A stretch of 26,308 nucleotides of DNA from a virus. Position 1 is the stretch's first letter, and each line of letters begins with the position of its first letter. The translations under genes and the position numbers were made by a program. The notes beneath the pieces were generated by a model, which saw only the letters and a program-made list of their open reading frames with translations, did no database searches and was not told the DNA's origin. Below, one piece after another: positions 7,419 through 22,006 of this stretch. Where the stretch lies: IMG/VR virus record IMGVR_UViG_3300042894_001507, positions 1-26,308 of that record, one strand, 5' to 3'.

Positions 7419-7441
7419 CAAACTATGAAAGGAAAGTTGAA

Positions 7442-8002
7442 ATGGATACAACTATAAAAACAGTTAATAGACTTTTGGGTCTATTAATGATCGTAGGCCT
7501 AGTCAATATGGTTACGATTTTTAAGCTACAAAGTACTACTAATGCTGGTGGTATTTTGGAAATAGTAAGAGAACACAAGTCTTATGTTTCTGCAAATAAT
7601 GTAGATAGAACCCTAGAATGTCTTGCTATGAACATTTATAAAGAAGCAGGCAATGAATCATTCGAAGGTAAAGTTGCAGTAGCACAAGTAACCCTTAACC
7701 GAGTAGATCACCCAAAGTTTCCAAAAGATATTTGTGGTGTGGTTTACCAAAAGAATGTAATTATGGAAAAAGTCGTGTGTCAATTTAGTTGGTACTGTGA
7801 CAGTGTTCACAAAGCACGACCTGTTAATAAAGAGTCATACGCCGATAGCTATGCAGTAGCTAAGAAAGTATTACTTGAAGGTTTTAGATTGGACTCGTTA
7901 ACCGATGCTATCTATTATCATGCTGACTATGTAAACCCACGATGGCCGCATGAACGTATTACAAAAGTGGGTGCTCATATTTTTTACAGGAGTCGTACAT
8001 GA
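7442..8002 (+). CDS. SleB-like cell-wall hydrolase (candidate endolysin) with N-terminal membrane anchor
   Basis: 186 residues. The C-terminal ~130 residues match the SleB/Hydrolase_2 family: LAMNIYKEAGNESFEGKVAV with presumed catalytic Glu E68, AQVTLNRV, CQFSWYCD, and the closing GAHIFYRSR. The family cleaves peptidoglycan glycan strands. Residues about 9-28 (NRLLGLLMIVGLVNMVTIFK) form one hydrophobic segment without an obvious signal-peptidase site, consistent with a signal-anchor or SAR-type endolysin. I chose the ATG at 7442, preceded by AGGAAAG at proper spacing; an in-frame GTG at 7391 lies inside the promoter/leader region. The stop overlaps the next start (ATGA), coupling it to a holin-like gene. 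Lysis function is inferred from family plus context. Confidence 0.85.
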   Translation: MDTTIKTVNRLLGLLMIVGLVNMVTIFKLQSTTNAGGILEIVREHKSYVSANNVDRTLECLAMNIYKEAGNESFEGKVAVAQVTLNRVDHPKFPKDICGVVYQKNVIMEKVVCQFSWYCDSVHKARPVNKESYADSYAVAKKVLLEGFRLDSLTDAIYYHADYVNPRWPHERITKVGAHIFYRSRT

Positions 8003-8310
8003 GTTTTGCAATCAAAGCAATTGAATATTTCAAAGATTTAGTTTATAACAAATTGGGTAAAATGTCAGCCGAGACTCTCGGTTGGTTAGCTAACATTTCA
8101 CTACATTGTGCTACTATACCATCTTTCTTTGCACTGATGACAGGTATCACAGACAAACCCCCGGCAGTTGACTTGGTTCTTATGATCTGGGCAACACTTG
8201 GTCTATTGTTCTTCCGTGCAGTGTTATTGAAAGACTTGCTCAATATCGTAACAATTGGTGTTGGCTTCTTGCTTCAAGCAACCGCAATGGCATTGATATT
8301 TTTTAAGTGA
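7999..8310 (+). CDS. Holin-like small membrane protein
   Basis: 103 residues with about three predicted transmembrane stretches: around 27-49 (LGWLANISLHCATIPSFF), 57-78 (DLVLMIWATLGLLFFRAVLL) and 81-101 (NIVTIGVGFLLQATAMALIFF). The N-terminus is a charged helix and the C-terminus ends at once after the last membrane segment. Size, topology and translational coupling to the SleB-like hydrolase fit a holin that would permit release or activation of the lysin. No holin family signature can be named, so this is a context-based call; another small inner-membrane protein is possible. Confidence 0.6.
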   Translation: MSFAIKAIEYFKDLVYNKLGKMSAETLGWLANISLHCATIPSFFALMTGITDKPPAVDLVLMIWATLGLLFFRAVLLKDLLNIVTIGVGFLLQATAMALIFFK

Positions 8311-8345
8311 GTGTATAACTATTAAATACTTCACTAAGGAAAAAA

Positions 8346-9449
8346 ATGAGTTATTTATTTACAAGTGAGAGTGTGTCAGAAGGACATCCGGACAAAGTTG
8401 CTGATGCAATCAGCGATGCAATTTTAGATTTGATTATGGCTAACGAGGATCCTACACAACGTTGTGCATGTGAAACATTAGTAACAACTAATCAAGTGGT
8501 TGTCGCCGGAGAGTACAAAGGCTCATTACATGAACTTCAAGTTGACAGTGCGATTCGCCGTGTTGTTAAAATTATTGGTTACGAACAAGAGGGCTTCGAT
8601 TGGCGAAAGCTAACAGTTACTAATCTATTGCATGGTCAGAGTGCTGACATTGCATTAGGTACTGATAACTTTGGCGCCGGCGATCAAGGCTTGATGTTTG
8701 GTTATGCATGTAATGAGACAGAGACACACATGCCAAGTGCTATCTATTGGTCGCACCGCATTGTAGAAAAACTATCTGAGTTACGTAAGCTAGGTGGACA
8801 ATATGGATGGTTAGGTCCTGATGCTAAAAGTCAGGTTACATTTGAGTATGACGACAATAACAAACCAAAGCGAATTGCTAAGGTCGTTTGCTCTACGCAA
8901 CATAGTGCAGACGTTGATATTATTGCAGTACGCAAAGCGGTAGAAGCAATTATACGTACAATCTTACCGAGGAATTATGTAGATGACACTACTGAGTTTT
9001 TTATTAATCCTACTGGGCGTTTCGTTATTGGTGGTCCTGATGGCGACACTGGCCTTACTGGAAGAAAAATTATTGTGGATACCTATGGTGGTTATAGTGC
9101 CCATGGTGGCGGCGCTTTCAGTGGTAAAGATCCTACCAAAGTAGATCGTAGTGCCGCATACATGATGCGCTACCTCGCTAAGAATATCGTAGCAAGTGGT
9201 AAAGCAGATTGGGCTACTGTGCAAATCAGTTATGCAATCGGTCTATCACAACCTATGAGTTTCTATGTTGAAACTGCCGATGCCGCACAAGGTCGTGACT
9301 TAACTAAATGGATTCAAGACAACATTGATTTGACACCTAAAGGTATCATTGATCGTTTCAAACTTTTCAGACCTATCTATAGCAACACTACTAACTATGG
9401 TCACTTCGGTAAACCCGATCTACCATGGGAATCAATTAATTTATTCTAA
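8346..9449 (+). CDS. metK: S-adenosylmethionine synthetase
   Basis: Makes S-adenosylmethionine from methionine and ATP. At 367 residues it is nearly the length of E. coli MetK (384) and aligns end to end. Visible signatures are SEGHPDKVADAISDAILD (catalytic His14), GAGDQGLMFGYACNET, DAKSQVTF (catalytic Lys), INPTGRFVIGGPDGDTGLTG, and the Gly-rich phosphate loop GGGAFSGKDPTKVDRSAAY. The C-terminus is slightly shortened. No key residue appears lost, so it is probably active. Preceded by AAGGA and overlapping the next gene by TAATG. It may supply methylation reactions (a methyltransferase-like gene lies at 16117) or offset host SAM limitation. It is an auxiliary metabolic gene not commonly part of phage cores. 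Confidence 0.97.
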   Translation: MSYLFTSESVSEGHPDKVADAISDAILDLIMANEDPTQRCACETLVTTNQVVVAGEYKGSLHELQVDSAIRRVVKIIGYEQEGFDWRKLTVTNLLHGQSADIALGTDNFGAGDQGLMFGYACNETETHMPSAIYWSHRIVEKLSELRKLGGQYGWLGPDAKSQVTFEYDDNNKPKRIAKVVCSTQHSADVDIIAVRKAVEAIIRTILPRNYVDDTTEFFINPTGRFVIGGPDGDTGLTGRKIIVDTYGGYSAHGGGAFSGKDPTKVDRSAAYMMRYLAKNIVASGKADWATVQISYAIGLSQPMSFYVETADAAQGRDLTKWIQDNIDLTPKGIIDRFKLFRPIYSNTTNYGHFGKPDLPWESINLF

Positions 9450-10006
9450 TGAACTCTAGTCCAGAACGAGGCACATTTCATATTAATAACGCTCTCAAAA
9501 ATGTAGAAGAAGGAACCAAAACTGCTGAAGATGCAGAAGGGTTAATCGACTTCTACAAATCTTGGGAGGAAAGACGCCGCGAGTTAGAACAAACTGACGA
9601 ATGGCGTAATAACAATATGGAGTATGACCTCCGTTCTTGTAAGTGGATTTGCGACAAAGCGAAAGCTAGTGAAGCATACGCACAAAACTTGTATGCCGCA
9701 ATCTGCAATAATGATTTCACGAAGAATGACGTATGGCCTATACTACAAGGTCAAACATGGAGTGCTAGTTGGCGCAGTGCTGGTGGCATCGTAGCTAACA
9801 TGGTTGAAGAAGGTGATTATATTGATTGGTATTGTTCTGGTATCACTGGTGAAGTTAGTGATGAAGAATACCAAGATATGACTGAGAAACAACAAGAGAG
9901 ATACACGTATCTAAAAACTCATTTTGTACCTGAAAGTCAAGTCACTGATGAGATTCGGGAAGACCTACTCAAGTTAGGTTGGTTGGTCGTTCCTGTCACC
10001 GAATAA
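9449..10006 (+). CDS. Conserved-looking phage protein of unknown function
   Basis: 185 residues, soluble, acidic and rich in Trp, Glu and Tyr. Distinctive segments are LRSCKWICDKAKASEAYAQNLYAAICNN, a middle block QTWSASWRSAGGIVANM, and GDYIDWYCSGI. It ends in a Val-rich strand. I do not recognise an enzymatic motif. It is translationally coupled to metK (TAATG) and its stop codon lies inside an AATAAATA late-promoter box for iscU. The Trp/Cys pattern and gene position suggest a conserved phage protein, but no function can be proposed. Confidence 0.6.
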   Translation: MNSSPERGTFHINNALKNVEEGTKTAEDAEGLIDFYKSWEERRRELEQTDEWRNNNMEYDLRSCKWICDKAKASEAYAQNLYAAICNNDFTKNDVWPILQGQTWSASWRSAGGIVANMVEEGDYIDWYCSGITGEVSDEEYQDMTEKQQERYTYLKTHFVPESQVTDEIREDLLKLGWLVVPVTE

Positions 10007-10009
10007 ATA
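10002..10009 (+). promoter_or_regulatory. T4-type late promoter box (AATAAATA) before iscU
   Basis: AATAAATA, the NATAAATA form of the T4/cyanophage late box, includes the TAA stop of the preceding gene. The iscU ATG follows 19 bases later with AAAGGAG in between, leaving room for a short leader. Confidence 0.5.
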
Positions 10010-10027
10010 CTCTAAAGGAGAGTACAT

Positions 10028-10414
10028 ATGGCGTATTCAGAAAAAGTAGTAGATCACTATGAGAACCCTCGAAATGTAGGATCTTTTGAAAAAGGTGATG
10101 AAGATATAGGTACAGGTATGGTCGGTGCACCTGCATGCGGTGACGTTATGAAACTGCAAATTAAAGTCGATCCAACAACAGGAATTATATCAGATGCCAA
10201 ATTTAAGACATATGGGTGTGGGTCAGCGATTGCTTCAAGCAGTCTTGTCACAGAATGGGTTAAAGGCAAAACTCTCGACCAGGCAGCAACAATTAGAAAC
10301 TCACAGATCGCAGAAGAACTCAGCCTCCCCCCAGTCAAAATCCACTGCTCTATCCTCGCAGAAGATGCGATAAAAGCCGCAGTAGACGATTATAGGAAGA
10401 AACACAATGGCTAA
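10028..10414 (+). CDS. iscU: Fe-S cluster assembly scaffold IscU
   Basis: 128 residues, the same length as E. coli IscU. Cluster ligands are all present: C37 and D39 in GAPACGDVMKL, C64 in YGCGSAIASSS, and H106-C107 in KIHCSILAEDAI. The chaperone recognition motif LPPVK (100-104), bound by HscA in bacterial IscU, is intact. The protein would hold a nascent [2Fe-2S] cluster made by a host IscS-type cysteine desulfurase; no desulfurase is in the window, so host IscS/HscA is presumably used. Strong ribosome site AAAGGAG. The end overlaps the next gene by 8 bases. Finding a fully equipped scaffold in a phage is unusual. Clients in this window may include redox and lipid enzymes, although the di-iron proteins here (NrdB, desaturases) do not contain Fe-S clusters. 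Confidence 0.95.
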   Translation: MAYSEKVVDHYENPRNVGSFEKGDEDIGTGMVGAPACGDVMKLQIKVDPTTGIISDAKFKTYGCGSAIASSSLVTEWVKGKTLDQAATIRNSQIAEELSLPPVKIHCSILAEDAIKAAVDDYRKKHNG

Positions 10415-10709
10415 TGAGCTTGCAAAGTACCTTAATTCTAAACGTAGATACAAAGATGAAGTCGCCGTACAGAAACAAGTTAAGATTGCTAAAGCACATG
10501 GTTTAGGACTTCACGATAAAGCTATCAAAGAGCCACATCGTTTAATAAAACACCATGCTATGGATTGCGGTAATCCTGATTGTTATCTATGTGGTAATCC
10601 ACGCAAGACACATAAAGACAAACTGACAGCACAAGAGAAACGTTTATTTCAGGATACTGAAAAAATAACAGATAAACACAGTAACGGACTGAAACCCACA
10701 GAAGATTAA
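10407..10709 (+). CDS. Small Cys/His-motif phage protein, possible zinc ribbon
   Basis: 100 residues, basic. The centre reads HHAMDCGNPDCYLCGNPRKTHK: Cys at spacing C-x4-C-x2-C with flanking His, resembling a short zinc knuckle. The N-terminus has a Lys/Arg-rich helix (RRYKDEVAVQKQVKIAKAHG) and the C-terminus a Lys/Asp/Thr-rich tail. It overlaps iscU by 8 bases and may be co-translated with it. Similar small proteins occur in many phage genomes to my recollection, but I cannot name the family. A metal- or nucleic-acid-binding role is possible; a link to Fe-S or metal handling is suggested only by its neighbour. Confidence 0.55.
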   Translation: MANELAKYLNSKRRYKDEVAVQKQVKIAKAHGLGLHDKAIKEPHRLIKHHAMDCGNPDCYLCGNPRKTHKDKLTAQEKRLFQDTEKITDKHSNGLKPTED

Positions 10710-10722
10710 TTCACCTTTTTCT

Positions 10723-10754
10723 TTGTATAAATATCACTGAGTATGTTATACTCA
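10723..10754 (+). promoter_or_regulatory. Composite promoter and dyad operator upstream of ahpC
   Basis: Late box TATAAATA (10726-10733) overlaps a -35-like TTGTAT (10723-10728). After an 18-base spacer there is a -10 TATACT (10747-10752). A perfect dyad TGAGTAT-GTT-ATACTCA (10738-10754) covers the -10. The motif TATCACTGAGTAT (10732-10744) matches TATCAGTGAGTAT at 7386-7398 with one change. The layout repeats the promoter at 7352, so the two transcription units may share a regulator. Confidence 0.6.
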
Positions 10755-10782
10755 CAGAGACTATTACACACAAGGAGAAATT

Positions 10783-11322
10783 ATGAAAACAGTCGGAGAT
10801 AAATTAGAAAAATTTGCAGTCACAGGCGTCAAGCCCGGACAACCAGAAGATGCTTTCTACACTATTACAGACCAAAGCTTTGCAGGCAAGTGGAAAGTAA
10901 TCGTGTACTATCCAAAAGATTTTACATTCGTTTGCCCAACAGAAATCGTAGCATACGATAAGTTGACACAGGACTTTGCAGACCGTGACGCAGTATTGCT
11001 CACAGGTTCAACAGACAATGAGTTCTGTAAAGTAGCATGGCAGACAGCACATGCTGATTTGAAGAAAATCACACATCACCAATTTGCTGACACACAGCGT
11101 GGTGAGTTTAGCTTGATTGAACAACTTGGTGTATTTTACGCTCCAGCAGGTGCGGCATTACGTGCAACATTCATTGTTGACCCAAACAATGAAATCCAGC
11201 ACGTTACAGTCAACAACTTGAACGTTGGTCGTAGCCCAGATGAAACATTGCGTATTCTTGACGCATTGCAAACTGGTGAACTATGCCCATGCTCACGCCC
11301 AATCGGTGGTGAGACACTCTAA
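10783..11322 (+). CDS. ahpC: AhpC-type peroxiredoxin
   Basis: Reduces hydrogen peroxide and organic hydroperoxides. 179 residues with the peroxiredoxin core FTFVCPTE (peroxidatic C51, T48), the active-site Arg R127 and the partner-interaction C-terminus ELCPC (C168, C170). The CPC ending resembles AhpC proteins of the type that pairs with AhpD rather than AhpF. It is the first gene after a composite promoter, with AAGGAG upstream of the ATG. An AhpD homologue is encoded about 4.2 kb downstream on the same strand, so the phage may carry both halves of a peroxide-detoxification pair. The glutaredoxin at 3383 is another possible electron source. The stop overlaps the next start by one base (TAATG). 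Confidence 0.95.
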   Translation: MKTVGDKLEKFAVTGVKPGQPEDAFYTITDQSFAGKWKVIVYYPKDFTFVCPTEIVAYDKLTQDFADRDAVLLTGSTDNEFCKVAWQTAHADLKKITHHQFADTQRGEFSLIEQLGVFYAPAGAALRATFIVDPNNEIQHVTVNNLNVGRSPDETLRILDALQTGELCPCSRPIGGETL

Positions 11323-11957
11323 TGTCTCATTTGGTGGCAAATTTACCACCGGTGCATTGTTATATTCGCCGTGAGTTTCTTTATGATTTTCAAAAGGGCC
11401 ACGGTGAGTATGAACCTTGTATATGGGTCAGTGTAAAAAGTCTACGCAGTCAGGCATTTAGAATAGAAGCATACTTACCTAGGTACGGTGCTTTGTATGA
11501 TAAGTTGCCGCTACATGCATATGTAAGCAGAAACAAAGATTTAGATCCAGCTAAGTTTTTAGATTTGGATACACTACAAATTTGGGACTGCTTTAGCTAT
11601 GATTTTACAATCATTCAAAAAGCATTCTTGCGTAATCTGAGTTGTAAATTTTATGCCAAAGATAAAAACTTCTATCAAGGCAACTATCTTTTCACAGTAG
11701 ATCATAGTGCTCCCGACCTAAACATCATTGATACAAGCTATGCAGAATGGCCCGAGGATCATAAGAGTTTCAACTTCATTGAATTAGAAAACGGGCAATA
11801 TGCGGCACAGCCTAATAATCGTTGTATATTCTTAGACGCAGCCAGCAATCCAACGGAACTGTTATTCCCGGACTTTAAAGTAGCTACTAAAAAATATGTA
11901 GTAGAGACTAATCCCAAATGGGCATTAGGTGACACAAGTACAGTAATGTACGAATAG
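11322..11957 (+). CDS. Hypothetical phage protein
   Basis: 211 residues, soluble, rich in aromatic residues and Asp. Segments include HCYIRREFLYDFQKGHGEYEPCIWVSVKSL near the N-terminus, then SFNFIELENGQYAAQPNNRCIFLD and NPKWALGDTSTVMYE at the C-terminus. The N-terminal CYIRREFLYDF...EPCIWVSVKSL block with beta-rich flanks is distinctive but I cannot assign it. No catalytic motif or membrane segment. It is coupled to ahpC by TAATG and followed after 8 bases by the aldolase-like gene, so it belongs to the same transcription unit. It may be a conserved phage protein of unknown role. Confidence 0.55.
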   Translation: MSHLVANLPPVHCYIRREFLYDFQKGHGEYEPCIWVSVKSLRSQAFRIEAYLPRYGALYDKLPLHAYVSRNKDLDPAKFLDLDTLQIWDCFSYDFTIIQKAFLRNLSCKFYAKDKNFYQGNYLFTVDHSAPDLNIIDTSYAEWPEDHKSFNFIELENGQYAAQPNNRCIFLDAASNPTELLFPDFKVATKKYVVETNPKWALGDTSTVMYE

Positions 11958-11965
11958 GAAATTAA

Positions 11966-12586
11966 ATGTTAGAAACAATCTGTGATACAATGGTAGAAGC
12001 TTACCGTCGCAACTGGATTACTAGTCGTGATGGTAATGTAAGCATACGTCACCATGACCGAGATCATTTTTATATTACTCCGAGTGGTGTGCGTAAACAA
12101 ACCATGCAACCTGACCAGTTCAAGAAGATTAAAATTCATGGATTGTTATGGACGGATGAATTCTACACTGATATTAGTGCTAATCTCAAACCTAGCGGAG
12201 AGATTCCATTGCACTTTGGTCTACAGAGAGCGATGGGACAGCATAGTAATGATGTCCGTGTAGTAATGCACTTTCATCCTACATATTGTGTTGCGGCAAT
12301 GCACGCCGGTATTGATCTATCAACAATCGTTAACGATTTTCCTGAATTAAGTCGCTACACAAAAGTTGCACCAAATGTGCCGGATGTTCCTCCCATCAGT
12401 CAAGAATTAGCAGATGAATGTCATCGTAACTTAGAATTAGATGATTACGGTAATATTGCTTATGACATTGTAGGAATTAAAGGTCACGGGGTCGTTTCAG
12501 TTGATACTAGCCCATGGAGAGCATTTGAACATATTGAACGATTGGAGCACATTTGCCAAATCGTATTAGCATCAAGGAAATATTAA
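11966..12586 (+). CDS. Class II aldolase/adducin-family protein
   Basis: 206 residues with the zinc-site layout of the class II aldolase family (fuculose-1-phosphate aldolase, methylthioribulose-1-phosphate dehydratase MtnB). SRDGNVSIR (20-28) and ITPSGVRK (37-44) are the phosphate-binding loops, E79 in KPSGEIPLH matches the catalytic Glu, MHFHPTYC (101-108) gives two His ligands (H102, H104), and GHGVVS (173-178) gives the third. The family cleaves or dehydrates sugar phosphates. It lies just before the heptose operon; alternatively it could act in the methionine-salvage pathway next to the phage MetK. Both roles are inference. No truncation seen. Confidence 0.85.
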   Translation: MLETICDTMVEAYRRNWITSRDGNVSIRHHDRDHFYITPSGVRKQTMQPDQFKKIKIHGLLWTDEFYTDISANLKPSGEIPLHFGLQRAMGQHSNDVRVVMHFHPTYCVAAMHAGIDLSTIVNDFPELSRYTKVAPNVPDVPPISQELADECHRNLELDDYGNIAYDIVGIKGHGVVSVDTSPWRAFEHIERLEHICQIVLASRKY

Positions 12587-12587
12587 A

Positions 12588-13001
12588 ATGTTAGACTGTT
12601 TAATTATTGGAGACAGCATTGCAGTAGGCACACATATGGCTAGACCAGAATGTATTGCCTACGCTAAGGGTGGGTGGAACAGTTGGCAATGGAACAAAGA
12701 CTATTTGGCTAAGGCATCAGCACAGCCCGCTAAAACTGTGATTATTAGCTTAGGTGCAAACGATCACAAGGGTGTAAAGACTGAACAAGAACTACGCAAG
12801 ATGCGTGAAGCAATCAAGGGCGAGAGGGTGTTTTGGATCGATCCTGGCCAGGATCGAAAGCCTGTTCCGCATGACGCTATGACCCGAATCGCAAAAGAAT
12901 ACGGAGATATAATTCTGCCGCGCCCAAAAAATCATATGAGTGCTGATGGTATTCATCCTACAGGTCGAGGCTACAAAATGTTAGGAGAACAGACAAAATG
13001 A
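12588..13001 (+). CDS. SGNH hydrolase
   Basis: 137 residues, a compact member of the SGNH fold. All four blocks are visible: IIGDSIAV (nucleophile S10), the Gly block around KGGWNSW (G28/G29), LGAND (N58) and ADGIHPT (D120, H123). It should be an active esterase- or acyltransferase-type hydrolase with unknown substrate. The preceding gene supplies an AAGGA ribosome site inside its end. It stands between the aldolase-like gene and the heptose genes, so deacylation or acylation of a surface sugar is possible. It is the clearest of the three SGNH-like genes in the window. Confidence 0.85.
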   Translation: MLDCLIIGDSIAVGTHMARPECIAYAKGGWNSWQWNKDYLAKASAQPAKTVIISLGANDHKGVKTEQELRKMREAIKGERVFWIDPGQDRKPVPHDAMTRIAKEYGDIILPRPKNHMSADGIHPTGRGYKMLGEQTK

Positions 13002-13017
13002 ACTTTTACGATTATAA

Positions 13018-13410
13018 ATGAAGCGTATATTTGTTAATGGTACTTTTGATGTACTTCATTTAGGTCATTTAGCTATGTTAAATTTTGCTAAATCATTGGG
13101 CAACCACCTAGTTGTAGCGATTGATTCAGATGAACGAGTTCGTAAACTCAAAGGATCATCAAGACCCATCAACAATGTTGTTGAACGTAAAGTTATGTTA
13201 GAGAATCTTAAAGCGGTAGATCAAGTAGAAATTTTTGACACCGATGAAGATTTGATTAATATAATAAAGACCTGTGATATCATGGTCAAGGGCGGCGACT
13301 ATAAGACATTACCAATTATTGGTAAAGAATATGTTACCGTTGTTTTATTTGAAAGAATAGATGAGTACTCTAGCACGAAAAAGATTCAACATATTATTGA
13401 TCGGGGATAA
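13018..13410 (+). CDS. hldC: Heptose-1-phosphate adenylyltransferase-like nucleotidyltransferase
   Basis: 130 residues matching the adenylyltransferase half of HldE (RfaE domain 2) or stand-alone HldC. GTFDVLHLGHL contains the HxGH nucleotide-binding motif (H14, H17), RKLKGSSRPI is the family's substrate segment, and VKGGDY and DEYSSTK complete the active site. It should transfer AMP from ATP to heptose 1-phosphate to make ADP-heptose, a precursor of LPS inner core. CDP-glycerol or CDP-choline transferases share the fold, but RPI, KGGDY and EYSSTK favour the heptose enzyme. The last 50 bases overlap the kinase gene in another frame, so gene order is the reverse of the HldE fusion (kinase first). 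Confidence 0.82.
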   Translation: MKRIFVNGTFDVLHLGHLAMLNFAKSLGNHLVVAIDSDERVRKLKGSSRPINNVVERKVMLENLKAVDQVEIFDTDEDLINIIKTCDIMVKGGDYKTLPIIGKEYVTVVLFERIDEYSSTKKIQHIIDRG

Positions 13411-14128
13411 TTGTAAGGACACGTATATCTACGGTGTCGTAACACGACTTAGTCCTGAAGCCCCTGTACCAGTGTTTCAACCTAATACTGAGATTGTTCT
13501 AGAGGGCATGGCAGGTAATGTTGCTAGAAATCTAGAGGCATTACATTGTGAGGTTAAGTTTCATTACAGTGATATTAGCGAAAAGAAAAGATTAATTGAC
13601 GAACGCAGTAAGCAACATCTAATCCGTATAGATAATGATGCTAAATGCACACCCATTCTTGGGTCGTTCGTAGACGTTAACGAACTCAATACATATGATG
13701 CAGTTGTGATTAGCGACTATAATAAGGGCACTGTCCCTACATCATTGATTGAATGGGTTAGAAAAGAATACAAAGGTCCTGTGTTCATTGACACAAAGAA
13801 AACTGACTTGGCTAAGTTCAATGGTTGCTATGTAAAAATCAATCAACTAGAAAAGAATATGGCAAAGACATTACCCGATGATGAGTGGCTAATTGTCACA
13901 AAGGGGGAGAAAGGTGCAGAGTATTTAGGACACACCTTAGCTCCTGATCTTACTGACGATGTGATTGACGTTTGCGGTGCCGGGGACACATTCTTGTCTG
14001 CATTAGTTTACCGTTACTTAGACACTAAAGATATTCGCAAGGCAATTATGTTTGCTAATAAGGCGGCAGGAATTACAGTACAACACGTAGGAGTATATGC
14101 TCCTAAACTAGAGGAGTTAATACCATGA
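13361..14128 (+). CDS. hldA: PfkB-family heptose 7-phosphate kinase-like protein
   Basis: 255 residues. The N-terminus, FNILLIGDNCKDTYIYGVVTRLSPEAPVPV, then GMAGNVARNLEAL, matches the RfaE1/HldE kinase domain closely. SDYNKG (119-124) and VCGAGDTF (catalytic Asp D209) complete the ribokinase-type active site. The family normally has a ~310-residue domain, so it is shortened by about 50-60 residues, largely in the middle. Role: phosphorylates D-glycero-D-manno-heptose 7-phosphate at C1. The ATG at 13361 is chosen because the next candidate would cut the first beta strand; this makes a 50-base overlap with the adenylyltransferase. Stop overlaps the next start (ATGA). Confidence 0.82.
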   Translation: MSTLARKRFNILLIGDNCKDTYIYGVVTRLSPEAPVPVFQPNTEIVLEGMAGNVARNLEALHCEVKFHYSDISEKKRLIDERSKQHLIRIDNDAKCTPILGSFVDVNELNTYDAVVISDYNKGTVPTSLIEWVRKEYKGPVFIDTKKTDLAKFNGCYVKINQLEKNMAKTLPDDEWLIVTKGEKGAEYLGHTLAPDLTDDVIDVCGAGDTFLSALVYRYLDTKDIRKAIMFANKAAGITVQHVGVYAPKLEELIP

Positions 14129-14484
14129 GTAGATTAGAAGGTTATGTAGAAAAAGGTTGGGGACATGAGCTTATCTTTGCAACAAACGAATTGTATTGTG
14201 GCAAGGTTCTCAAGTTCAACAAAGATGCTAAATTCAGTATGCACTTTCATAGTGAAAAAGATGAGACTTGGTTTGTATTAAACGGTAAGTTCAAGGTCAG
14301 GTATATTGACACAAAAGACGCAACAGAGCATGAAGTTATATTGAATCCTAACGATGTGTGGAGAAACAAACCATTGTTTCCACATCAAGTGATTTGTTTA
14401 GAAGAGGGTGCTATAATTGAAGTCTCTACGCCTGATAGCGTGGAAGACAATTATAGAGTGTATAAAGGAGATAGTCAGAAATGA
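14125..14484 (+). CDS. Cupin-domain protein, sugar-metabolism type
   Basis: 119-residue single cupin. KGWGHELIFATNELYCGKVL near the start resembles the phosphomannose-isomerase-like cupins that begin with PWG. MHFHSEKDETWFVLNGKF supplies the metal-binding HxH...E of motif 1, and PHQVICLEEGAIIEVSTP gives motif 2. In the heptose operon it could act as a sugar isomerase or epimerase; it cannot be assigned to GmhA, which has an unrelated SIS fold. Coupled to both neighbours by four-base ATGA overlaps. Confidence 0.75.
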   Translation: MSRLEGYVEKGWGHELIFATNELYCGKVLKFNKDAKFSMHFHSEKDETWFVLNGKFKVRYIDTKDATEHEVILNPNDVWRNKPLFPHQVICLEEGAIIEVSTPDSVEDNYRVYKGDSQK

Positions 14485-14777
14485 AAGTGTATATGGTTGA
14501 TATAGATAACACTATTTGTATAAGCAATGGTAGTGATTATGCAAATAGCAAACCTATGATAGAACGTATTGAAAAGATAAATGAATTGTACAGTCAAGGT
14601 CACAAGATCATTTATTGGACAGCCCGTGGCGGTAATAGCGGCATTGACTGGACAGATAAAACACATAGTCAATTAGCAGCCTGGGGCTGTAGATATGATG
14701 AAATTCGTATGGGAAAGCCTCCCTATGATGTATGGGTAGATGACAAGGCTATTAACTCTGAGGATTTCTTCAAGTGA
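14481..14777 (+). CDS. Small HAD-superfamily phosphatase
   Basis: 98 residues. Motif I is DIDNT (D7, D9), motif II YWTARG (T48), motif III K79 in GKPPYD and motif IV DD (87-88) in WVDDKA, so it is a compact HAD phosphatase with the full set of catalytic residues and no evident cap domain. By position it could take the place of GmhB, which removes the 7-phosphate from heptose 1,7-bisphosphate. That role is inferred from the neighbours; its sequence alone does not separate it from capsule-type phosphatases. Coupled by overlaps on both sides, including GTGA to the epimerase gene. Confidence 0.8.
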   Translation: MKVYMVDIDNTICISNGSDYANSKPMIERIEKINELYSQGHKIIYWTARGGNSGIDWTDKTHSQLAAWGCRYDEIRMGKPPYDVWVDDKAINSEDFFK

Positions 14778-15565
14778 AAATTTTATTAACAGGACATAAA
14801 GGCTTTATTGGCTCTAACATGCTTAACGCATTGAAAGATCACGAAGTCACTACATTCGAATGGGGTGATTCGTTGCCTAGTGTCGAAGGACATCAATGGG
14901 TCATTCATATGGGTGCTAATAGTTCTACTACTGAACGTGATATTGAAAAGATTATGCACCAGAACGTTGACTTCAGTGTGTGGTTACTAAATCAGTGTAT
15001 TAAGCATGGTGTAGACTTTCAATATTCAAGCAGTGCTAGCGTATATGGTATGCGTAAAGAAAATTTTGCAGAGACTGAACCTGTTGACCCTCGTAACCCT
15101 TATGCCTGGACAAAGTACTTGTTTGAACGTCACGTTAACAATATTGACCCTAAGAAGCTTAATAACATTCGCATTCAAGGTTTCAGATACTTTAATGTCT
15201 ATGGTCCCGGTGAAGATCACAAAGAAGGTCAAGCAAGTCCTCACCACACATTCACTAGACAAGCAAAAGCAACTGGTATTATAAGACTGTTTGAAAACAG
15301 CGAGAATTATAAACGAGATTTTGTACCTGTAGAACTAGTAACAGATTACCACCAAAGATTCTTTGACGTAAAAGAATCTGGTGTGTGGAATATAGGTACA
15401 GGAAAACCTGTAAGTTTTGAGCAAGTAGCACGAAACATTGCAGAACAATACGGAGCTAAGATAGATTATATCCCAATGCCCGCAAAACTCAAAGATAGTT
15501 ACCAAACTTATACATGTGCAGACATGTCAAAAACACTAACAAGCTTACAAAATAAAGGAGAATAA
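14774..15565 (+). CDS. hldD: ADP-L-glycero-D-manno-heptose 6-epimerase-like SDR enzyme
   Basis: 263 residues, extended short-chain dehydrogenase/reductase. The NAD(P) motif GHKGFIGS (7-14) follows the first strand. GANSSTTE, SSSASVYG, the catalytic Y110-x3-K114 and FRYFNVYGPGEDHKEG, then NYKRDFVPVE and NIGTGKPVSF and LKDSYQTYTCAD align closely with E. coli HldD (310 aa), except that about 45 residues are missing, mostly near the N-terminal third. HldD converts ADP-D-glycero- to ADP-L-glycero-D-manno-heptose for LPS core. The start is GTG at 14774, overlapping the previous stop (GTGA). Followed by AAAGGAG and ahpD. Confidence 0.85.
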   Translation: MKILLTGHKGFIGSNMLNALKDHEVTTFEWGDSLPSVEGHQWVIHMGANSSTTERDIEKIMHQNVDFSVWLLNQCIKHGVDFQYSSSASVYGMRKENFAETEPVDPRNPYAWTKYLFERHVNNIDPKKLNNIRIQGFRYFNVYGPGEDHKEGQASPHHTFTRQAKATGIIRLFENSENYKRDFVPVELVTDYHQRFFDVKESGVWNIGTGKPVSFEQVARNIAEQYGAKIDYIPMPAKLKDSYQTYTCADMSKTLTSLQNKGE

Positions 15566-15566
15566 A

Positions 15567-16124
15567 ATGGAAGCAATCGCATCAGTACCCCCAATTACCA
15601 TTGGTGGCAATTGGGTAGATCAAGTTAAAGATAGTATCCCTGACACAGCAAAAGATATTCGTTTGAACCTGGATAGTGTTATCAATCGTAGTCCGTTTGA
15701 TCCAGTAGATACACACGCAATCGCATACGTGTCTGCATTGGCTTCAAGTAATGGCGGTCTAGCATTTGAGATTGAAATGAACGGTCCATTGTTCAATGAC
15801 GAAGTAGCACGTGAGGCAGCAAAGACCGCGGCCGCATTGATGGGCCAAAACAACGTATGGTATCCATTCGTTGAAATGTGTGATGATCCTGAATTAAAGG
15901 GATTGCCTGCAGGCCTACGTATGAACGCATATGCTAACAACGGTGGCACAACTAAGAAGCAATTTGAAATGTACACCTTAGCCGCAAGTATTATCGGTAA
16001 GTGCCACTTCTGTGTTAAAGCACACTATGAAGCATTGAAGAAAGAAGGCTTGACTGTGCAACAGTTACAGCACATTGGTAAGATTGCGGCGACTATCAAC
16101 GCAATCGGCAAAGTAGCTATTTGA
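15567..16124 (+). CDS. ahpD: AhpD-family alkylhydroperoxidase
   Basis: 185 residues. The signature KCHFCVKAHYE gives redox C146 and C149 and H153, with an upstream Glu at 134. This matches the proton-relay layout of mycobacterial AhpD (C130, C133, H137, E118), although the position-132 His is shifted: here CHFC rather than CSHC. AhpD recycles AhpC or acts itself as a weak peroxidase; the phage AhpC at 10783 has the AhpD-type CPC tail. It ends the heptose operon, and its 3' end overlaps the convergent methyltransferase gene by eight bases, leaving no room for a terminator. The pairing with AhpC is inference. Confidence 0.9.
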   Translation: MEAIASVPPITIGGNWVDQVKDSIPDTAKDIRLNLDSVINRSPFDPVDTHAIAYVSALASSNGGLAFEIEMNGPLFNDEVAREAAKTAAALMGQNNVWYPFVEMCDDPELKGLPAGLRMNAYANNGGTTKKQFEMYTLAASIIGKCHFCVKAHYEALKKEGLTVQQLQHIGKIAATINAIGKVAI

Positions 16125-16673: not shown

Positions 16674-17234
16674 TTAAAACTTCCAAACATCCTCAAACTG
16701 TTGTCCAAAGAAATTAGAATAAGGAAATCTCACACTTAACACTAGTCTGTTAGTAGGTTTGTAATTATCGATTCCATGAACAATATCAGTTCTAACAAAT
16801 GTAGGACGATCTATAACAGTTGAGTCTATTTTTTCTAATTTAGTAAAGTCTATGACTTTACTAGCCGGAATATTTTCAAACCCGTAATGTCCGTTATCAA
16901 AATTATTATCTGGACAACTATACCAATCCATTGTAGTGTTCTCATATCCGGATATAGGTATGTTTAACCCAATAGGTGATCTAAAAGTACTGACACCATC
17001 GGCATGTGGTTGTAGACTGCTATTTGGTGGAGTTAGATAAAATCTACAAAATCTAATAGAAATTTTCTTCTTACTTTCAATAAAGTTATAGAACGTAGGT
17101 GTGTTTTGTTTAAACCAAGTATAAGGTTCTCCCCAGTATCTTGTATTTTGTATAACTCTGTTCATTGATGCTAATTCTAATTCTACTCGCATCTGTTCAA
17201 AATTATCAACCTCTAATTTTTTATACAGCAACAT
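16674..17234 (-). CDS. 2OG-Fe(II) oxygenase-like protein
   Basis: 186 residues with the double-stranded beta-helix iron motif HxD...H...R: H77-A-D79 in SLQPHADG, H153 in DIVHGIDN, and R163 or R169 that could bind 2-oxoglutarate. Such enzymes hydroxylate proteins, nucleic acids or small molecules. It overlaps the next-upstream gene (17221) by 14 bases. That neighbour has the same motif layout, so the two are probably paralogous or complementary. The substrate cannot be told from the sequence, and the overall sequence similarity to named 2OG families is only motif level. Confidence 0.6.
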   Translation of the reverse strand: MLLYKKLEVDNFEQMRVELELASMNRVIQNTRYWGEPYTWFKQNTPTFYNFIESKKKISIRFCRFYLTPPNSSLQPHADGVSTFRSPIGLNIPISGYENTTMDWYSCPDNNFDNGHYGFENIPASKVIDFTKLEKIDSTVIDRPTFVRTDIVHGIDNYKPTNRLVLSVRFPYSNFFGQQFEDVWKF

Positions 17235-17715
17235 TTATTAACTCTCCGTTAAAATGCATTTCTCTAAGGGTGCTGTATGAATGATTCTTAAATCCTATAG
17301 ATAGCATTAGTCTTTCTTTTTCAGGATTTTTATTTTCTATACCGTGCGGCTTCATAACATTAAGCAGAGTAAAGTTATTTGTCTTATATCCTATAGGTTC
17401 TAGTGTCTTGTTTATATACATGTAAGACTGAAACCCTACAGTTTCTTCAAATAAAGGCATGTTAATAGATGCGATTCTAAAAACATCAGTATGGATAGGA
17501 TAAATTCTTAGTGGGGGAGTTTTTAAAAATCCACAGCACGTAAAAGGAGCATTTATTAGTTTAGAAAGTTCTGTTCTTAAAAAAGAACTAGCATCACAAC
17601 GCAACACCTTTGCAGGACTCATGTAATAGTTTTCAGCAACAGATGCCTCTTCATACATTAACGATAGCAGATGTTTAGGTGAGTAATCTAGATTCAAATA
17701 ATAATCGTCTAACAT
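17221..17715 (-). CDS. Second 2OG-Fe(II) oxygenase-like protein
   Basis: 164 residues. H75-T-D77 in IYPIHTDVF, H124 in KPHGIEN, and R135 in KERLMLSIGF follow the iron/2-oxoglutarate layout of the neighbouring protein, with LTPPNSS...HAD there and KTPPLRIYPIHTD here. The N-terminal half is poorly alignable. It overlaps the GNAT-like gene by seven bases upstream and its partner by 14 bases downstream. The two may form a heteromeric or sequential hydroxylation system; this is speculative. Confidence 0.55.
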   Translation of the reverse strand: MLDDYYLNLDYSPKHLLSLMYEEASVAENYYMSPAKVLRCDASSFLRTELSKLINAPFTCCGFLKTPPLRIYPIHTDVFRIASINMPLFEETVGFQSYMYINKTLEPIGYKTNNFTLLNVMKPHGIENKNPEKERLMLSIGFKNHSYSTLREMHFNGELINVAV

Positions 17716-18305
17716 TTAATAGTAGTCCAGTCAAATTCAAAGTTTTTGTCAAGCTTTTCGTATATAACCCACTGCGGGGTGTATTGAATCATTACAAGGA
17801 ATAGAACTTCTTCTACACCGGTGTAGAACATATGCTTTGGTTCTCTGTTATTGATTCTGTTGTTCTTCTCACCCAATCGATTACGTTTGAAGATTTCTAT
17901 GATGTTTTTATTGTAGTCATTGAATGAAAGTGCTACCAACTTAACTTGTCGTTCTATGCACCATTTTTTATGTTCTACTAATAGATAGTCCCTATGTAGT
18001 GACAAATGACGATAAGTTTGGTCAACCCAAGTTCTGACGCCTGCTAATGCAATGTCACTATTGAAATCACTTATATAAACTCCACCACAGGCGGCTATTT
18101 TGTCACCGTCAAACAAGACAAAGAATTCTCCGTTTACTCCGTTGAACCTGTTAGTGTTCTCTAGTATGTAGGGAAGCGTATGCTGATTATTCACATCGTC
18201 ACTCCACATATTTGATGACGATTGTTTGTCATGCAATAATGATTGTTCCTTGCAAAAAGTAAGGAACTGTTGTTTATCTATTGATTTGTAGGTCTTTATT
18301 TGCAT
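17709..18305 (-). CDS. GNAT-like acetyltransferase
   Basis: 198 residues from the ATG at 18305. A central beta-strand block (GEFFVLFDGDKIAACGGVYIS), followed by a WVDQTYRHLSLHRDYLLVEHKKWCIE helix, then VKLVALSFNDYNKNIIEIFKRN, has the N-acetyltransferase order, although the usual QxxGxG/A acetyl-CoA loop is not clear. It leads the minus-strand operon behind a perfect TATAAATA box. Upstream in-frame ATGs at 18344 and 18359 would overlap the divergent desaturase and bypass this promoter; 18305 with CAAGAA upstream fits better. Substrate unknown. Confidence 0.55.
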   Translation of the reverse strand: MQIKTYKSIDKQQFLTFCKEQSLLHDKQSSSNMWSDDVNNQHTLPYILENTNRFNGVNGEFFVLFDGDKIAACGGVYISDFNSDIALAGVRTWVDQTYRHLSLHRDYLLVEHKKWCIERQVKLVALSFNDYNKNIIEIFKRNRLGEKNNRINNREPKHMFYTGVEEVLFLVMIQYTPQWVIYEKLDKNFEFDWTTIKC

Positions 18306-18321: not shown

Positions 18322-18335
18322 GATAAATATTTATA
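18322..18335. promoter_or_regulatory. Overlapping divergent late promoters (palindromic box)
   Basis: On the minus strand TATAAATA (18335-18328) precedes the GNAT-like gene at 18305. On the plus strand GATAAATA (18322-18329) ends five bases before the desaturase ATG at 18335. The shared core is the 12-bp palindrome ATAAATATTTAT, so a single site can be read in both directions. The plus box would place the transcript start at or near the ATG. Confidence 0.55.
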
Positions 18336-19087
18336 TGTTTTCATCCAATGCCCAAACAATTACCAAAATTCAAATGATTACCGGATTGTTGTCAATAGCC
18401 GGGCTATTTTATTTCGACTTTACTCTGTCAAACGTTATCTTGCTACTTGTTAGTTTCTACATTTACAGTGTTATAGGGGTTGGCTTAACACTACACAGAT
18501 ACTATTCACATAAATCATTTGAATTTAGATTTGAATTTATGAAATGGATATGTACATTTATTGCAATACTATCCGGACGAGCTAGTATCCTAGGATGGGT
18601 TTATGTTCATAGATTGCATCACGCACACTCTGACACTGAAAAGGACCCGCACGGCCCCGGCAACATTGGATTTAAATTGTTTAACTTCAAACACATAGAA
18701 TCTACTGCAGGAAAGATGAATGTATTCTTAGTCAAGGACTTAATGAACAAACAGCATATTTTTATACACGATTACTATCTTGCTATAATCTTGGCATTCG
18801 TTTTTGTCTTAGCTATATTTGGTCTAGACGTAGCGTATTTCGTTTGGGTTCTACCCGTGTTTTTAGTACAAATGAGCCAGAATAGTTTTAACTATTTTGC
18901 ACATACATATGGTTATAGAAACTACGAGACAAAAGATACCAGTAGTAACAACGCATTGTTATGGCCGTTGATAATGGGTGATGCTTGGCATAACAATCAT
19001 CACGGTAATCCTGCTTCTATGACTACACAAATGAAATGGTGGGAAATTGATCCTGCTGGTTATCTTATTAGGATGATTAGAAGATGA
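18335..19087 (+). CDS. Membrane fatty-acid (acyl-CoA/acyl-lipid) desaturase, first of a tandem pair
   Basis: 250 residues with membrane stretches around 13-28, 32-54, 70-90, 145-180. Di-iron His boxes: H54-x4-H59 in HRYYSHKSF, H92-x2-HH in HRLHHAHSD, H190 (AHTYG) and H219-x2-HH in HNNHHGNP. This is the delta-9 type desaturase layout, which inserts a cis double bond into acyl chains using oxygen. I chose ATG 18335 rather than an ORF extension to 18281, which would lie over the divergent gene. The first ~45 residues are more divergent from the second copy. The stop overlaps the next start (ATGA). A role in changing host membrane or virion lipids is inferred. Confidence 0.9.
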   Translation: MFSSNAQTITKIQMITGLLSIAGLFYFDFTLSNVILLLVSFYIYSVIGVGLTLHRYYSHKSFEFRFEFMKWICTFIAILSGRASILGWVYVHRLHHAHSDTEKDPHGPGNIGFKLFNFKHIESTAGKMNVFLVKDLMNKQHIFIHDYYLAIILAFVFVLAIFGLDVAYFVWVLPVFLVQMSQNSFNYFAHTYGYRNYETKDTSSNNALLWPLIMGDAWHNNHHGNPASMTTQMKWWEIDPAGYLIRMIRR

Positions 19088-19839
19088 AACAATATTTGTA
19101 TCCAAGAGAATGGTTTTTCATAGTAATGCAGGTTATTGCTAGCATTGTCACAGTGTGGGCAATCTTTAATCCTGCAGGGATAAATTATTGGTTGACAGCG
19201 TTGTTTGGCTACTTTTTGATAACATGCTTAGGAGTGTCTGTCACGTTTCATAGACTATTAACTCACAAATCCTACAAATTAGCGAAACCATTAGAATATG
19301 TTTTTAGCTATCTAGGAAATTTAGGATGCACAGGTAGTTCTGTGGGTTGGGTCTTTGTACATAGAACACATCACAAATTTGCAGACAAGCCCGGCGATCC
19401 TCATAGTCCTGTTGTCATGGGCCCATTAGGGGCAATAATTGGAGACTATACAAGCAAGTTTAATAAGTGGGGAGTCAGAGATATCATCAATGATCCTGTA
19501 CATAGATTCATGCATGAATATTACATGCTAGTAGTATTAGCAACAGTGCTTGTTCTATACATGATTGATCCATTGTTATCTGTTTATCTATTCTGGATTC
19601 CAATGTTCTTAAACACAGTAGCGTCTAGATTGAGTAACTGGATCGACCATGACCCTAAATTTGGTACAAGATCCGATAAAAGCAAAGATCAATCTCATAA
19701 TGTCTGGTGGTGGGCATTGTTAACATTCGGTGAAGGTTGGCACAACAATCATCATTTATATCCCGGTGACTATAGAATCGGAAGAAAATGGTGGCAAATT
19801 GATATCGGTGCGTATGTCATACACCTAGTGCGTAAATAA
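19084..19839 (+). CDS. Membrane fatty-acid desaturase, second of the pair
   Basis: 251 residues with the same architecture. His boxes H56-x4-H61 in HRLLTHKSYK, H93-x2-HH in HRTHHKFAD, H189 (WIDHDP) and H220-x2-HH in HNNHHLYPG; the hydrophobic N-terminal helices and PHSP/DPHG loops are preserved. The same-length neighbour suggests an old duplication with divergence, perhaps to act on different positions or chain lengths. Coupled to the first by ATGA. The 27 bases to the convergent PP-loop gene are AT-rich and hold no hairpin-plus-U terminator that I can see. Confidence 0.9.
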   Translation: MKQYLYPREWFFIVMQVIASIVTVWAIFNPAGINYWLTALFGYFLITCLGVSVTFHRLLTHKSYKLAKPLEYVFSYLGNLGCTGSSVGWVFVHRTHHKFADKPGDPHSPVVMGPLGAIIGDYTSKFNKWGVRDIINDPVHRFMHEYYMLVVLATVLVLYMIDPLLSVYLFWIPMFLNTVASRLSNWIDHDPKFGTRSDKSKDQSHNVWWWALLTFGEGWHNNHHLYPGDYRIGRKWWQIDIGAYVIHLVRK

Positions 19840-19866: not shown

Positions 19867-20778
19867 TTAACCCAAGATATCTTTACGTAACTCATCATAA
19901 GTCCTCAAATGTTCTTGTCTATAAAGTAATCCATTGTTTTTATTAGACAAGAATTTTTCAAACTCGGATACCAATGATGTTATCTTTTCAAATCCGGTCG
20001 CTTTAGTACGATTAATCATGTCAGGAAATACTTCTTTGTATCCTTGCAATTTAGTAGAAGAAACTCCAGACTTTCCAATTATACCATCATTAGTCAATAA
20101 TTTAAACCATTCTAAATTAGTATAAGCCCATACTAATCCGGGTCGCCATTTAAACCAAATGGGTATACCTGGCTTATCTATTGCTAATAAGAATTTACTA
20201 GTCCCAGTAAATAGTTCCATATCACCATATCCCCAGGATCCTTTAACTGAATAATCAATACCTTGATTTCTAAACCACCATGGATCTCCTTGCCCTAATA
20301 CAGGTATACCATCGGCAATCTCTAAGAAATTTAAATAGGGTAGAGCAGCTGGTCTATCTATTTCCGATAACTCCGAATACCGCTCGGCATCATTTTCATA
20401 AAATTTAGCAAGATTGAAATCGATTATCTTGTAATCAACCCCTAACATATTACAAATGGTTACAGCATAGCTAACATCATACAGATTAAAATCATTCTCA
20501 TACCTATATATAATCACATCAATAGGGTAACCAATAGCCAGATAACTTCTTAATACAACCTCACTATCAGCACCTCCTGAAAAAAGCAATGTAAGTTTTC
20601 TGTTCGGATATGTATCAACTGTAGACTGTGCTACCTTAATTAATTCTTCTTTATAAGTTCCGATTTGAGATAAGCATTTTCCGTAATTTGTTTTAAAGGG
20701 TTTATTCGGAACATATCTTCCGTTTATGGGATCGTCACCGTATTGCCAATTATACCAATTATTTTCTGAGAAAATCAT
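19867..20778 (-). CDS. PP-loop ATP pyrophosphatase-like protein (minus-strand member of a divergent pair)
   Basis: 303 residues. LLFSGGADSEVVLRSYL is the SGGxDS PP-loop that binds ATP alpha-phosphates in AANH-type enzymes (asparagine synthetase C-domain, QueC, tRNA thiolases). The following strand DVIIYRYEND and GVDYKIIDFN fit the Rossmann-like order, and VLGQGDPWWF is a plausible second conserved loop. There are no QueC zinc Cys. The ATG at 20778 lies directly after TATAAATATTC; an in-frame TTG at 20796 would run through the late-promoter box. Substrate unknown; the enzyme would activate a carboxyl or amide as an adenylate. Converges on the desaturases. Confidence 0.75.
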   Translation of the reverse strand: MIFSENNWYNWQYGDDPINGRYVPNKPFKTNYGKCLSQIGTYKEELIKVAQSTVDTYPNRKLTLLFSGGADSEVVLRSYLAIGYPIDVIIYRYENDFNLYDVSYAVTICNMLGVDYKIIDFNLAKFYENDAERYSELSEIDRPAALPYLNFLEIADGIPVLGQGDPWWFRNQGIDYSVKGSWGYGDMELFTGTSKFLLAIDKPGIPIWFKWRPGLVWAYTNLEWFKLLTNDGIIGKSGVSSTKLQGYKEVFPDMINRTKATGFEKITSLVSEFEKFLSNKNNGLLYRQEHLRTYDELRKDILG

Positions 20779-20783
20779 ATGAA

Positions 20784-20802
20784 TATTTATAGACAATAAA
20801 TA
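20784..20802. promoter_or_regulatory. Divergent late promoter boxes between the PP-loop genes
   Basis: Minus-strand TATAAATA (20791-20784) and plus-strand AATAAATA (20795-20802) are three bases apart, pointing outwards. The minus box ends five bases before its ATG. The minus start region TATAAATATTCATATG resembles GATAAATATTTATATG at the desaturase start. Confidence 0.55.
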
Positions 20803-20824: not shown

Positions 20825-22006
20825 ATGATATTGACAAGTAAAATTAACGGACATTACATTGTTGATGGTAATGTAATCAATAATAAACTGCAAGCAATTA
20901 TTGCAGCCAGTGAAACCAACAGTCACATTCAATGGAAATATTTTGATGATGTCTTTAGCACCTCAACAGGTTTATTTAATAACCACGATGTAACATTAAA
21001 AGAACTGTATAGCTCTAGAGCCCAACAGTTGCGAGATACCTATGACTATCTTATATTAAATTATAGCGGAGGTAGTGATAGTCATAATATACTAATGACT
21101 TTTTTAGAATACAATATCAAATTAGATCATGTTTACATTCAATGGCCTGAACGTCTAATGGATAAAGGAATTTATGTACCTAATAGTGTAGATAAATCTA
21201 ATGCAAATTTTCATAGTGAATGGGATTTGGTATTAAAAAAAGATTTAGAATGGCTTGGTAAAAAGCATCCGGAAATCAAGATTGAAATAGCTGATTGGAC
21301 TGCTACCGTAACGGAACAATTTTATAAAGACGACATTTTTGCAAATGATGTTAGCAATTTACCTAGTATTGCTAGATCACAAAAGCAAAACACATTTAGT
21401 CCTATAGAAGGTAAACTTGCGTTACAAGGTAAAAAAGTAGCAAGTATATTTGGAGTAGATAAACCTAGTATAGTTAAAAAAGGCGACAACTGGTTTTTTT
21501 ACTTCAGTGACACTGCATGTATGGCTCAACCGAATCCGGATAATCCATATGGTACAGAGTATTTTTATTGGAGTCCTAATTTTCCAGACATTGCAATTTC
21601 ACAAGCATATGCAATGAAAAGATATTTTAAAAACAATCCTGACAAAATTTATTTGATACAAAATCCTCCTGAAAGAGCGCAACTAGATCCTACATATAAT
21701 ACTAGAACATATTCTCAGCGTTACAATGAATACTCTCAAGTTTCTGATATAGCAAAACTAGTCTGTTATCCATACTGGGATTTTAATAGATTTCAGGCAG
21801 ACAAGCCATTTGCTATACTCGATGGATTTAAAATGGGTACAAGGGCGTGGGATAATATTCTTACAGAAATACCTGGTTTTAACCGAGTTCAGCAAGCATG
21901 GGAGTATCATTGGAAAAGTTACTTAAAACAAATAGATATGAAATTTATGAGAAGTCAAGATACAGTTAATGTTTGTAGAACTAATTGGCATTACATAGGC
22001 CAATAA
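20825..22006 (+). CDS. PP-loop ATP pyrophosphatase-like protein (plus-strand partner)
   Basis: 393 residues. LILNYSGGSDSHNILMTFL carries the SGGSDS PP-loop; HVYIQWPERL follows as the next strand. Further conserved-looking parts are WFFYFSDTACMAQPNPDNPYG and DRYSQ...CYPYWDFNRFQ. It resembles the divergent partner only in the PP-loop and general order, not in length. The ATG has only a weak ribosome site. The stop sits in AATAAATA for the next gene. Paired ATP-activating enzymes suggest one pathway for a small-molecule or nucleic-acid modification; no substrate can be named. Confidence 0.7.
   Translation: MILTSKINGHYIVDGNVINNKLQAIIAASETNSHIQWKYFDDVFSTSTGLFNNHDVTLKELYSSRAQQLRDTYDYLILNYSGGSDSHNILMTFLEYNIKLDHVYIQWPERLMDKGIYVPNSVDKSNANFHSEWDLVLKKDLEWLGKKHPEIKIEIADWTATVTEQFYKDDIFANDVSNLPSIARSQKQNTFSPIEGKLALQGKKVASIFGVDKPSIVKKGDNWFFYFSDTACMAQPNPDNPYGTEYFYWSPNFPDIAISQAYAMKRYFKNNPDKIYLIQNPPERAQLDPTYNTRTYSQRYNEYSQVSDIAKLVCYPYWDFNRFQADKPFAILDGFKMGTRAWDNILTEIPGFNRVQQAWEYHWKSYLKQIDMKFMRSQDTVNVCRTNWHYIGQ

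Follow-up and report, generated by a model that had tools for sequence, protein, structure and literature searches.

Acyl desaturases have already been described in several groups of phages. Cyanophages carry lipid desaturases (Roitman et al. 2018, as cited in PMC11480375), which, by that description only, are phage-encoded acyl desaturases like the two reported here. A Nitrospirota virus from the freshwater of Lake Baikal encodes an acyl-CoA desaturase and an iron-sulfur biosynthesis gene, and its desaturase, with best matches to Nitrospira, was read as host-derived (PMC7678222). Two Arctic brine viruses encode five copies each of SCD-like desaturases, for which an effect on membrane fluidity was proposed; these proteins form two clades without any microbial member (PMC7300359). 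Beyond desaturases, Roseobacter prophages carrying fabG-acpP-fabF have been reported (PMC8224337), and bacterial polyyne clusters contain a desaturase triad, all members of which are required together, plus a dedicated acyl carrier protein (ACP) (PMC8406139). A preliminary description of the present locus called phage lipid desaturation rarely described. This is not supported: the cyanophage, Nitrospirota virus and brine virus genes are published, and 475 viral contigs matched one of our two desaturases (desaturase B, below).

The gene family and its presence in phages were thus already known, and what appears to be new here is a conserved module of two desaturase types, A and B, with fixed partner genes. 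No report of A/B pairing, of linkage to GNAT and PP-loop genes, or of a desaturase array with its own ACP and ketoacyl synthase (KAS) was found in a literature search outside which most subscription journals lay. The section on the brine viruses that proposes membrane fluidity likewise describes neither A/B pairing nor GNAT linkage (PMC7300359).

The window, i.e. the whole stretch of DNA analysed, is an IMG/VR fragment from a large uncultured phage, 26,308 bases long, with a GC content of 38% and a tRNA cluster at its end. No structural genes were identified in this 26-kb fragment, and a search of 50,697 phage records gave no DNA match to it. The window's NrdB shares 63% identity with its counterpart in Xanthomonas phage X1. 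Records of 345, 236 and 229 kb are among the related desaturase contigs. The T4-type major capsid protein gp23 was found in eight of 32 related desaturase contigs and in none of 14 control genomes, indicating that the group is T4-like at least in part; a terminase was found in two related desaturase contigs. With its source in an IMG/VR record, gp23 in desaturase-bearing relatives and homologues in cells, the pair belongs with the phage auxiliary metabolic genes. The isolate-phage collection yielded no matches for the GNAT, PP-loop or ORF 5500-7338 proteins of the window, and the only isolate with a desaturase relative, a distant one, was Pelagibacter phage Mosig (L086). The Mosig desaturase gene has Asp_Arg_Hydrox, N-acetyltransferase, methylase and peroxiredoxin genes as neighbours, and this arrangement recalls the window. 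The features around the desaturase pair are as follows.

16674 to 17234, minus strand: putative 2OG-Fe oxygenase-like protein, possible accessory; by eye, no Pfam match
17221 to 17715, minus strand: putative 2OG-Fe oxygenase-like protein, possible accessory; by eye, no Pfam match
17709 to 18299, minus strand: GNAT-like transferase, divergent, upstream of A; weak profile match to a GNAT acetyltransferase (3t9y, E = 0.0017)
18322 to 18329, plus strand: GATAAATA, T4-late-promoter-like motif, 5 nt before the start of A; from the sequence
18328 to 18335, minus strand: TATAAATA, late-promoter-like motif towards the divergent GNAT gene; within the number expected by chance for the window
18335 to 19087, plus strand: desaturase A (viral clade A), 250 amino acids; PF00487, nine ligand histidines, AlphaFold2 model, SCD1 fold, tree
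19084 to 19087, plus strand: ATGA overlap coupling the stop of A to the start of B; from the sequence
19084 to 19839, plus strand: desaturase B (viral clade B), 251 amino acids; PF00487, nine ligand histidines, AlphaFold2 model, SCD1 fold, tree
19867 to 20796, minus strand: PP-loop ATPase (QueC/NAD-synthetase-like), downstream of B; PF06508 (E = 4.4e-5), NAD synthetase profile (E = 1.2e-5)
20825 to 22006, plus strand: second PP-loop-like protein; SGGSDS motif by eye, no Pfam match

Elsewhere in the window, a peroxiredoxin of AhpC-like type was recognised by eye at 10783-11322, and a carboxymuconolactone-decarboxylase/AhpD-like protein (PF02627) is encoded at 15567-16124; these two proteins could have lipid peroxides from unsaturated chains as a target. 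An ADP-heptose-type sugar synthesis run was read by eye at 13018-15565 (cytidylyltransferase, PfkB kinase, HAD and NAD-dependent epimerase), of which the epimerase alone was confirmed by Pfam. An IscU/NifU-like iron-sulfur scaffold gene, also recognised by eye, lies at 10028-10414. The Nitrospirota virus likewise combines a desaturase with an iron-sulfur gene, but A and B show no sign of such a recent origin.

Both proteins were confirmed as SCD/DesA-type membrane desaturases, chance being excluded. The PF00487 matches of A (E = 3.9e-17, 63.3 bits) and B (E = 1.2e-16, 61.7 bits) lie above the cut-off of 29.7 bits. The best NCBIfam match of both (A, E = 8e-26; B, 1e-24) was the DesA-family bacterial desaturase NF049918, with 91.1 and 87.0 bits, respectively, which is below the cut-off of 400 and covers the first 231 of 385 model positions. 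Sequence and profile searches alike placed SCD1 structures closest among solved proteins. The AlphaFold2 models (mean pLDDT 93.6 for A and 95.6 for B) matched only SCD1 structures in the PDB at E <= 0.001 in Foldseek, with query-normalised TM scores of 0.75-0.82. A and B share with SCD1 (PDB 4ymk, 6wf2 and 4zyo) the fold, the metal site of nine histidines and one asparagine, and a conserved tryptophan; they are 21-25% identical to it, about 50-70 residues shorter, and differ at the Q143 and T257 sites. The three histidine boxes and the ninth ligand are H54/59, H92/95/96, H219/222/223 and H190 in A, and H56/61, H93/96/97, H220/223/224 and H189 in B. These nine histidines align with the SCD1 metal ligands, and none of them varies among 44 A-type and 51 B-type viral relatives. 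The asparagine ligand is Asn186 in A and Asn185 in B; its site is kept in only 28 of the 44 clade A proteins, including that of the window.

The two copies are 30% identical to each other over their full length. In the nearest relative of the pair (L003), A is 96% and B 90% identical to the window proteins, and the dN/dS values against this relative (NG86) are about 0.10 for A (0.024/0.230) and about 0.08 for B (0.057/0.677), which places both genes under purifying selection. A TTG at 18281 is a possible alternative upstream start for A, while the start at 18335 is common to its relatives. The 4-bp overlap of adjacent desaturases recurs in many related contigs. The preliminary description of two ATGA-coupled desaturases of 250-251 residues at 18335-19839, with complete histidine boxes in both copies, is thus accurate, and its view of the genes as phage-borne and diverged agrees with the PF00487 matches, the IMG/VR record and the low mutual identity.

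The PF00487 family also includes hydroxylases, epoxidases and acetylenases, and one or both copies might carry out such other di-iron chemistry on the same fold. Residues beside the catalytic tryptophan bear on this. The equivalent of SCD1 Trp149 is invariant in A, B and cellular proteins. The Gln143 and Thr257 that accompany it in SCD-type enzymes, and which we take to shape the kink of the acyl tunnel, are not kept by the A and B clades. The column aligned with Gln143 holds Arg in 43 of 44 A proteins, Thr in all 51 B proteins, and Gln or Glu in 23 of 24 cellular ones, and that aligned with Thr257 holds mostly Gln in A (24/44), Ser in B (49/51) and Thr in cellular proteins (23/24). A search covering part of the literature found no confirmation of the Q143/T257 role. 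The divergence of these residues, together with the breadth of the family, leaves room for another reaction, but all the ligands are retained and the closest solved structures are those of desaturases, so we consider it unlikely. The residue pattern fits a different positional or substrate specificity for A and B, without amounting to proof.

A phylogeny with bacterial desaturases, proposed in the preliminary description, bears on the origin of the pair. In a tree of 97 proteins (IQ-TREE, careful run), 21 viral proteins including A formed one clade (support 100/99) and 15 proteins including B another (98/77), the latter with two contigs of one archaeal MAG; other viral desaturases fell into further paralogous groups. 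All 24 sampled cellular desaturases formed a single clade (100/99) outside A and B. Cells of many phyla have homologues, so a host could in principle have supplied A, B or both recently, but the closest bona fide cellular protein shares about 39% identity with B. The position of the cellular clade rejects recent host capture, named in advance as a refutation of the earlier interpretation, for the sampled hosts, and we regard it as very improbable. A and B lie in two old viral lineages, both separate from every cellular desaturase sampled, although the tree gives no date for their split.

Two sets of records were set aside in this connection. The record labelled 'Acinetobacter phage MD-2021a' (L087, CAKLQH020000002.1) reads as a bacterial chromosome (trpB, btuB, baeSR) and its desaturase groups with the cellular ones in the tree; it seems to be mislabelled and was rejected as phage evidence. 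The two contigs of a Nitrososphaerales MAG that carry B-clade genes (L095 and L096; JANWKP010000208.1 and JANWKP010000389.1) are probably viral contamination of an archaeal bin, and an archaeal origin was set aside.

The related phage contigs, where the preliminary description had suggested looking for the genes, revealed a marked asymmetry between the two types. Among the loci collected with B as seed, 33 of the 34 A genes with 4-kb flanks had a B gene on the same strand within 3.5 kb. A scan of genome contigs with A alone as query gave no matches. Since the B-seeded set was biased towards B, the viral contigs were rescanned with an alignment of clade A. In this A-seeded set, 43 of the 46 A genes with 4-kb flanks had a same-strand B within 3.5 kb. 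In the remaining three, B lay just beyond 3.5 kb (L178), was adjacent on the opposite strand (L217) or was 7 kb away (L230, the same contig as L033). After removal of redundancy at 80% identity, B was present within the available flank for 36 of 37 A genes, the 37th being L230. Two short contigs with short flanks (L232 and L233) have A without B in the available stretch. Conversely, 27 of 60 B genes had no same-strand A within 3.5 kb, a proportion from the B-seeded set, which is not a census. Both orders, A-B and B-A, occur, and the 4-bp overlap is frequent. A is thus almost always accompanied by B, and B is often alone, an asymmetry that points to a dependence of A on B. In biochemical terms, A would most simply use the product of B as its substrate; alternatively, the dependence may reflect complementary substrates or a physical partnership.

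These data can be set against the published model for phage desaturases, namely membrane fluidity (PMC7300359, PMC7678222). Under such a model, A and B would be an ordinary fluidity gene in two copies, giving the same monounsaturated product and kept for dosage or for different chain lengths or temperatures. The SCD-like folds of both proteins and the many phages with B alone agree with it, but the near absence of A without B and the clade-fixed differences at the Q143 and T257 sites do not, and the recurrent GNAT and PP-loop partners described below would be left unexplained. We therefore consider this explanation rather less than likely. The earlier proposal of distinct roles for the two copies is supported by the two clades, the clade-fixed residues and the near-obligate pairing. 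Taken as a whole, the earlier interpretation is supported as regards phage-borne, diverged desaturases with distinct roles, but not as regards their rarity.

Genes flanking the pair recur in the relatives. Within 5 kb, GNAT homologues were found in 33 of the 46 loci seeded with A and in 16 of the 24 loci with B only, and for PP-loop ATPase homologues the corresponding figures were 29 and 16; these linkage counts treat related contigs as independent. At the same distance, 20 of the 46 A loci had a homologue of the 20825-22006 protein, and homologues of the two oxygenase-like proteins were near A in eight (17221-17715) and 11 (16674-17234) of 46 loci. GNAT was present in 16 of 19 whole contigs and effectively single per contig, even at 345 kb (one further match, weak and partial, was seen in G037). 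In 13 of the 16 contigs it lay within 1 kb of a desaturase, against 1.5 expected under random placement, a proximity reached in none of a million random draws, although the contigs are not fully independent. In the reverse test, GNAT-seeded loci contained a desaturase in 45 and A in 41 of 48 cases, and distant GNAT relatives (about 30% identical) had a desaturase in 24 of 32 loci. This recurrence of GNAT and PP-loop genes suggests something more specific than membrane fluidity.

In a second, more distant group of phages (L306-L329), a 295-aa desaturase accompanies GNAT, PP-loop and a further GNAT-like gene, the order and spacing of the four being constant, as read in L317. Fatty-acid-hydroxylase-like ORFs were seen by eye near the desaturase/GNAT/PP-loop module at L284:10687-11133 and L317:12378-13418.

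Some relatives carry much larger sets. In L088 (IMGVR_UViG_3300013006_001903, 157-13877), 11 desaturases are packed into some 16 kb, and six of these overlap head to tail. Genes for an ACP, a KAS, a Rieske protein, a rubrerythrin and an AcpS-type transferase accompany them, and the stretch looks like a phage-borne acyl biosynthetic cluster. A RimK-like ATP-grasp gene is also present there. G003 and G034 have eight desaturases each. Among 51 related contigs, ACP was found in 12, KAS in 10 and Rieske in 16, and ACP or KAS directly adjoins a desaturase in several. In the Rieske proteins both the 2Fe-2S and the mononuclear-iron motifs are conserved, and carnitine monooxygenase and SxtT are similar to them. 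In L089 (9936-13750 and 8486-9946), five desaturases form one run next to a radical-SAM protein, of cobalamin-binding type by eye, and in L284 (9143-10684) a similar protein comes directly after the A-B pair.

The layout of the L088 array resembles that of the bacterial polyyne clusters with their desaturase triad and ACP (PMC8406139), but no fatty acyl-AMP ligase, thioesterase or rubredoxin was seen in L088. These arrays, the ACP, KAS and Rieske genes of relatives and the GNAT linkage raise the possibility of a dedicated phage pathway to a specific acyl product, for example a polyene or an N-acyl compound, in which a carrier- or lipid-bound chain would be desaturated serially and transferred or activated by the GNAT and PP-loop proteins. 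On the other hand, family searches found no ACP, KAS or Rieske gene in the window, no acyl-AMP ligase or thioesterase was identified, and the GNAT and PP-loop proteins are putative enzymes by sequence. We regard a dedicated pathway as possible, but still tentative.

The preliminary description tentatively placed the action of the desaturases late in infection. ATAAATA is the core of the T4 late promoter. Of the 93 non-redundant A/B genes that come first in a run, 52 have this motif 1-14 nt upstream of an in-frame start; for genes placed after another desaturase the figure is three of 20, and among 1,095 other ORFs it is 10%. Its enrichment before A/B units in the relatives makes late expression plausible. 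Over the whole window, however, T4-late-like motifs are not above chance, so the argument for a late promoter comes from the relatives and lends the earlier statement indirect support. Concerning electron supply, no Fer2 ferredoxin was found in 24 phage records; a phage-encoded donor of this type was rejected there, and the host is probably the electron source.

The near-constant company of A and B and their shared partner genes look like one lipid-altering toolkit rather than spare copies. We consider it reasonably probable that A and B are functional, non-redundant di-iron acyl desaturases forming an old, late-expressed two-gene module of large, partly T4-like aquatic phages. The computations establish the family and fold of the proteins, their intact metal site, the purifying selection on both genes, the two separate viral clades, the pairing of A with B and the linkage to GNAT. 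Whether the enzymes are active, on which substrate, in what order, at what time, with which electron donor and to what end is a matter of inference, along the following lines. A single late transcript would probably yield both A and B, which would reside in the host inner membrane and take electrons from the host's own donor. They would then insert double bonds in acyl chains, probably at different positions or in sequence. B would probably be the first, self-sufficient step and A the second, needing the product of B; the sole basis for this order is the asymmetry of occurrence. The GNAT transferase and the PP-loop ATPase would probably act on the acyl product in the same pathway.

Phage desaturases have so far been read as single host-derived membrane-fluidity genes. 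The present locus offers a contrast, with two virus-specific enzyme types, long separated, that are kept paired with constant partners and have relatives in arrays of up to 11. Large aquatic phages may conceivably possess a modular pathway, evolved in viruses, for building or remodelling a specific acyl product late in infection, with a core of A, B, GNAT and PP-loop ATPase that is extended in some phages to as many as 11 desaturases plus Rieske oxygenase, ACP, ketoacyl synthase and AcpS, following a logic like that of a bacterial polyene or polyyne cluster. If the product is a di-unsaturated or otherwise special acyl chain, such phages would run their own lipid chemistry, possibly one absent from their hosts, and this would affect lysis, superinfection exclusion or membrane-bound virion assembly.
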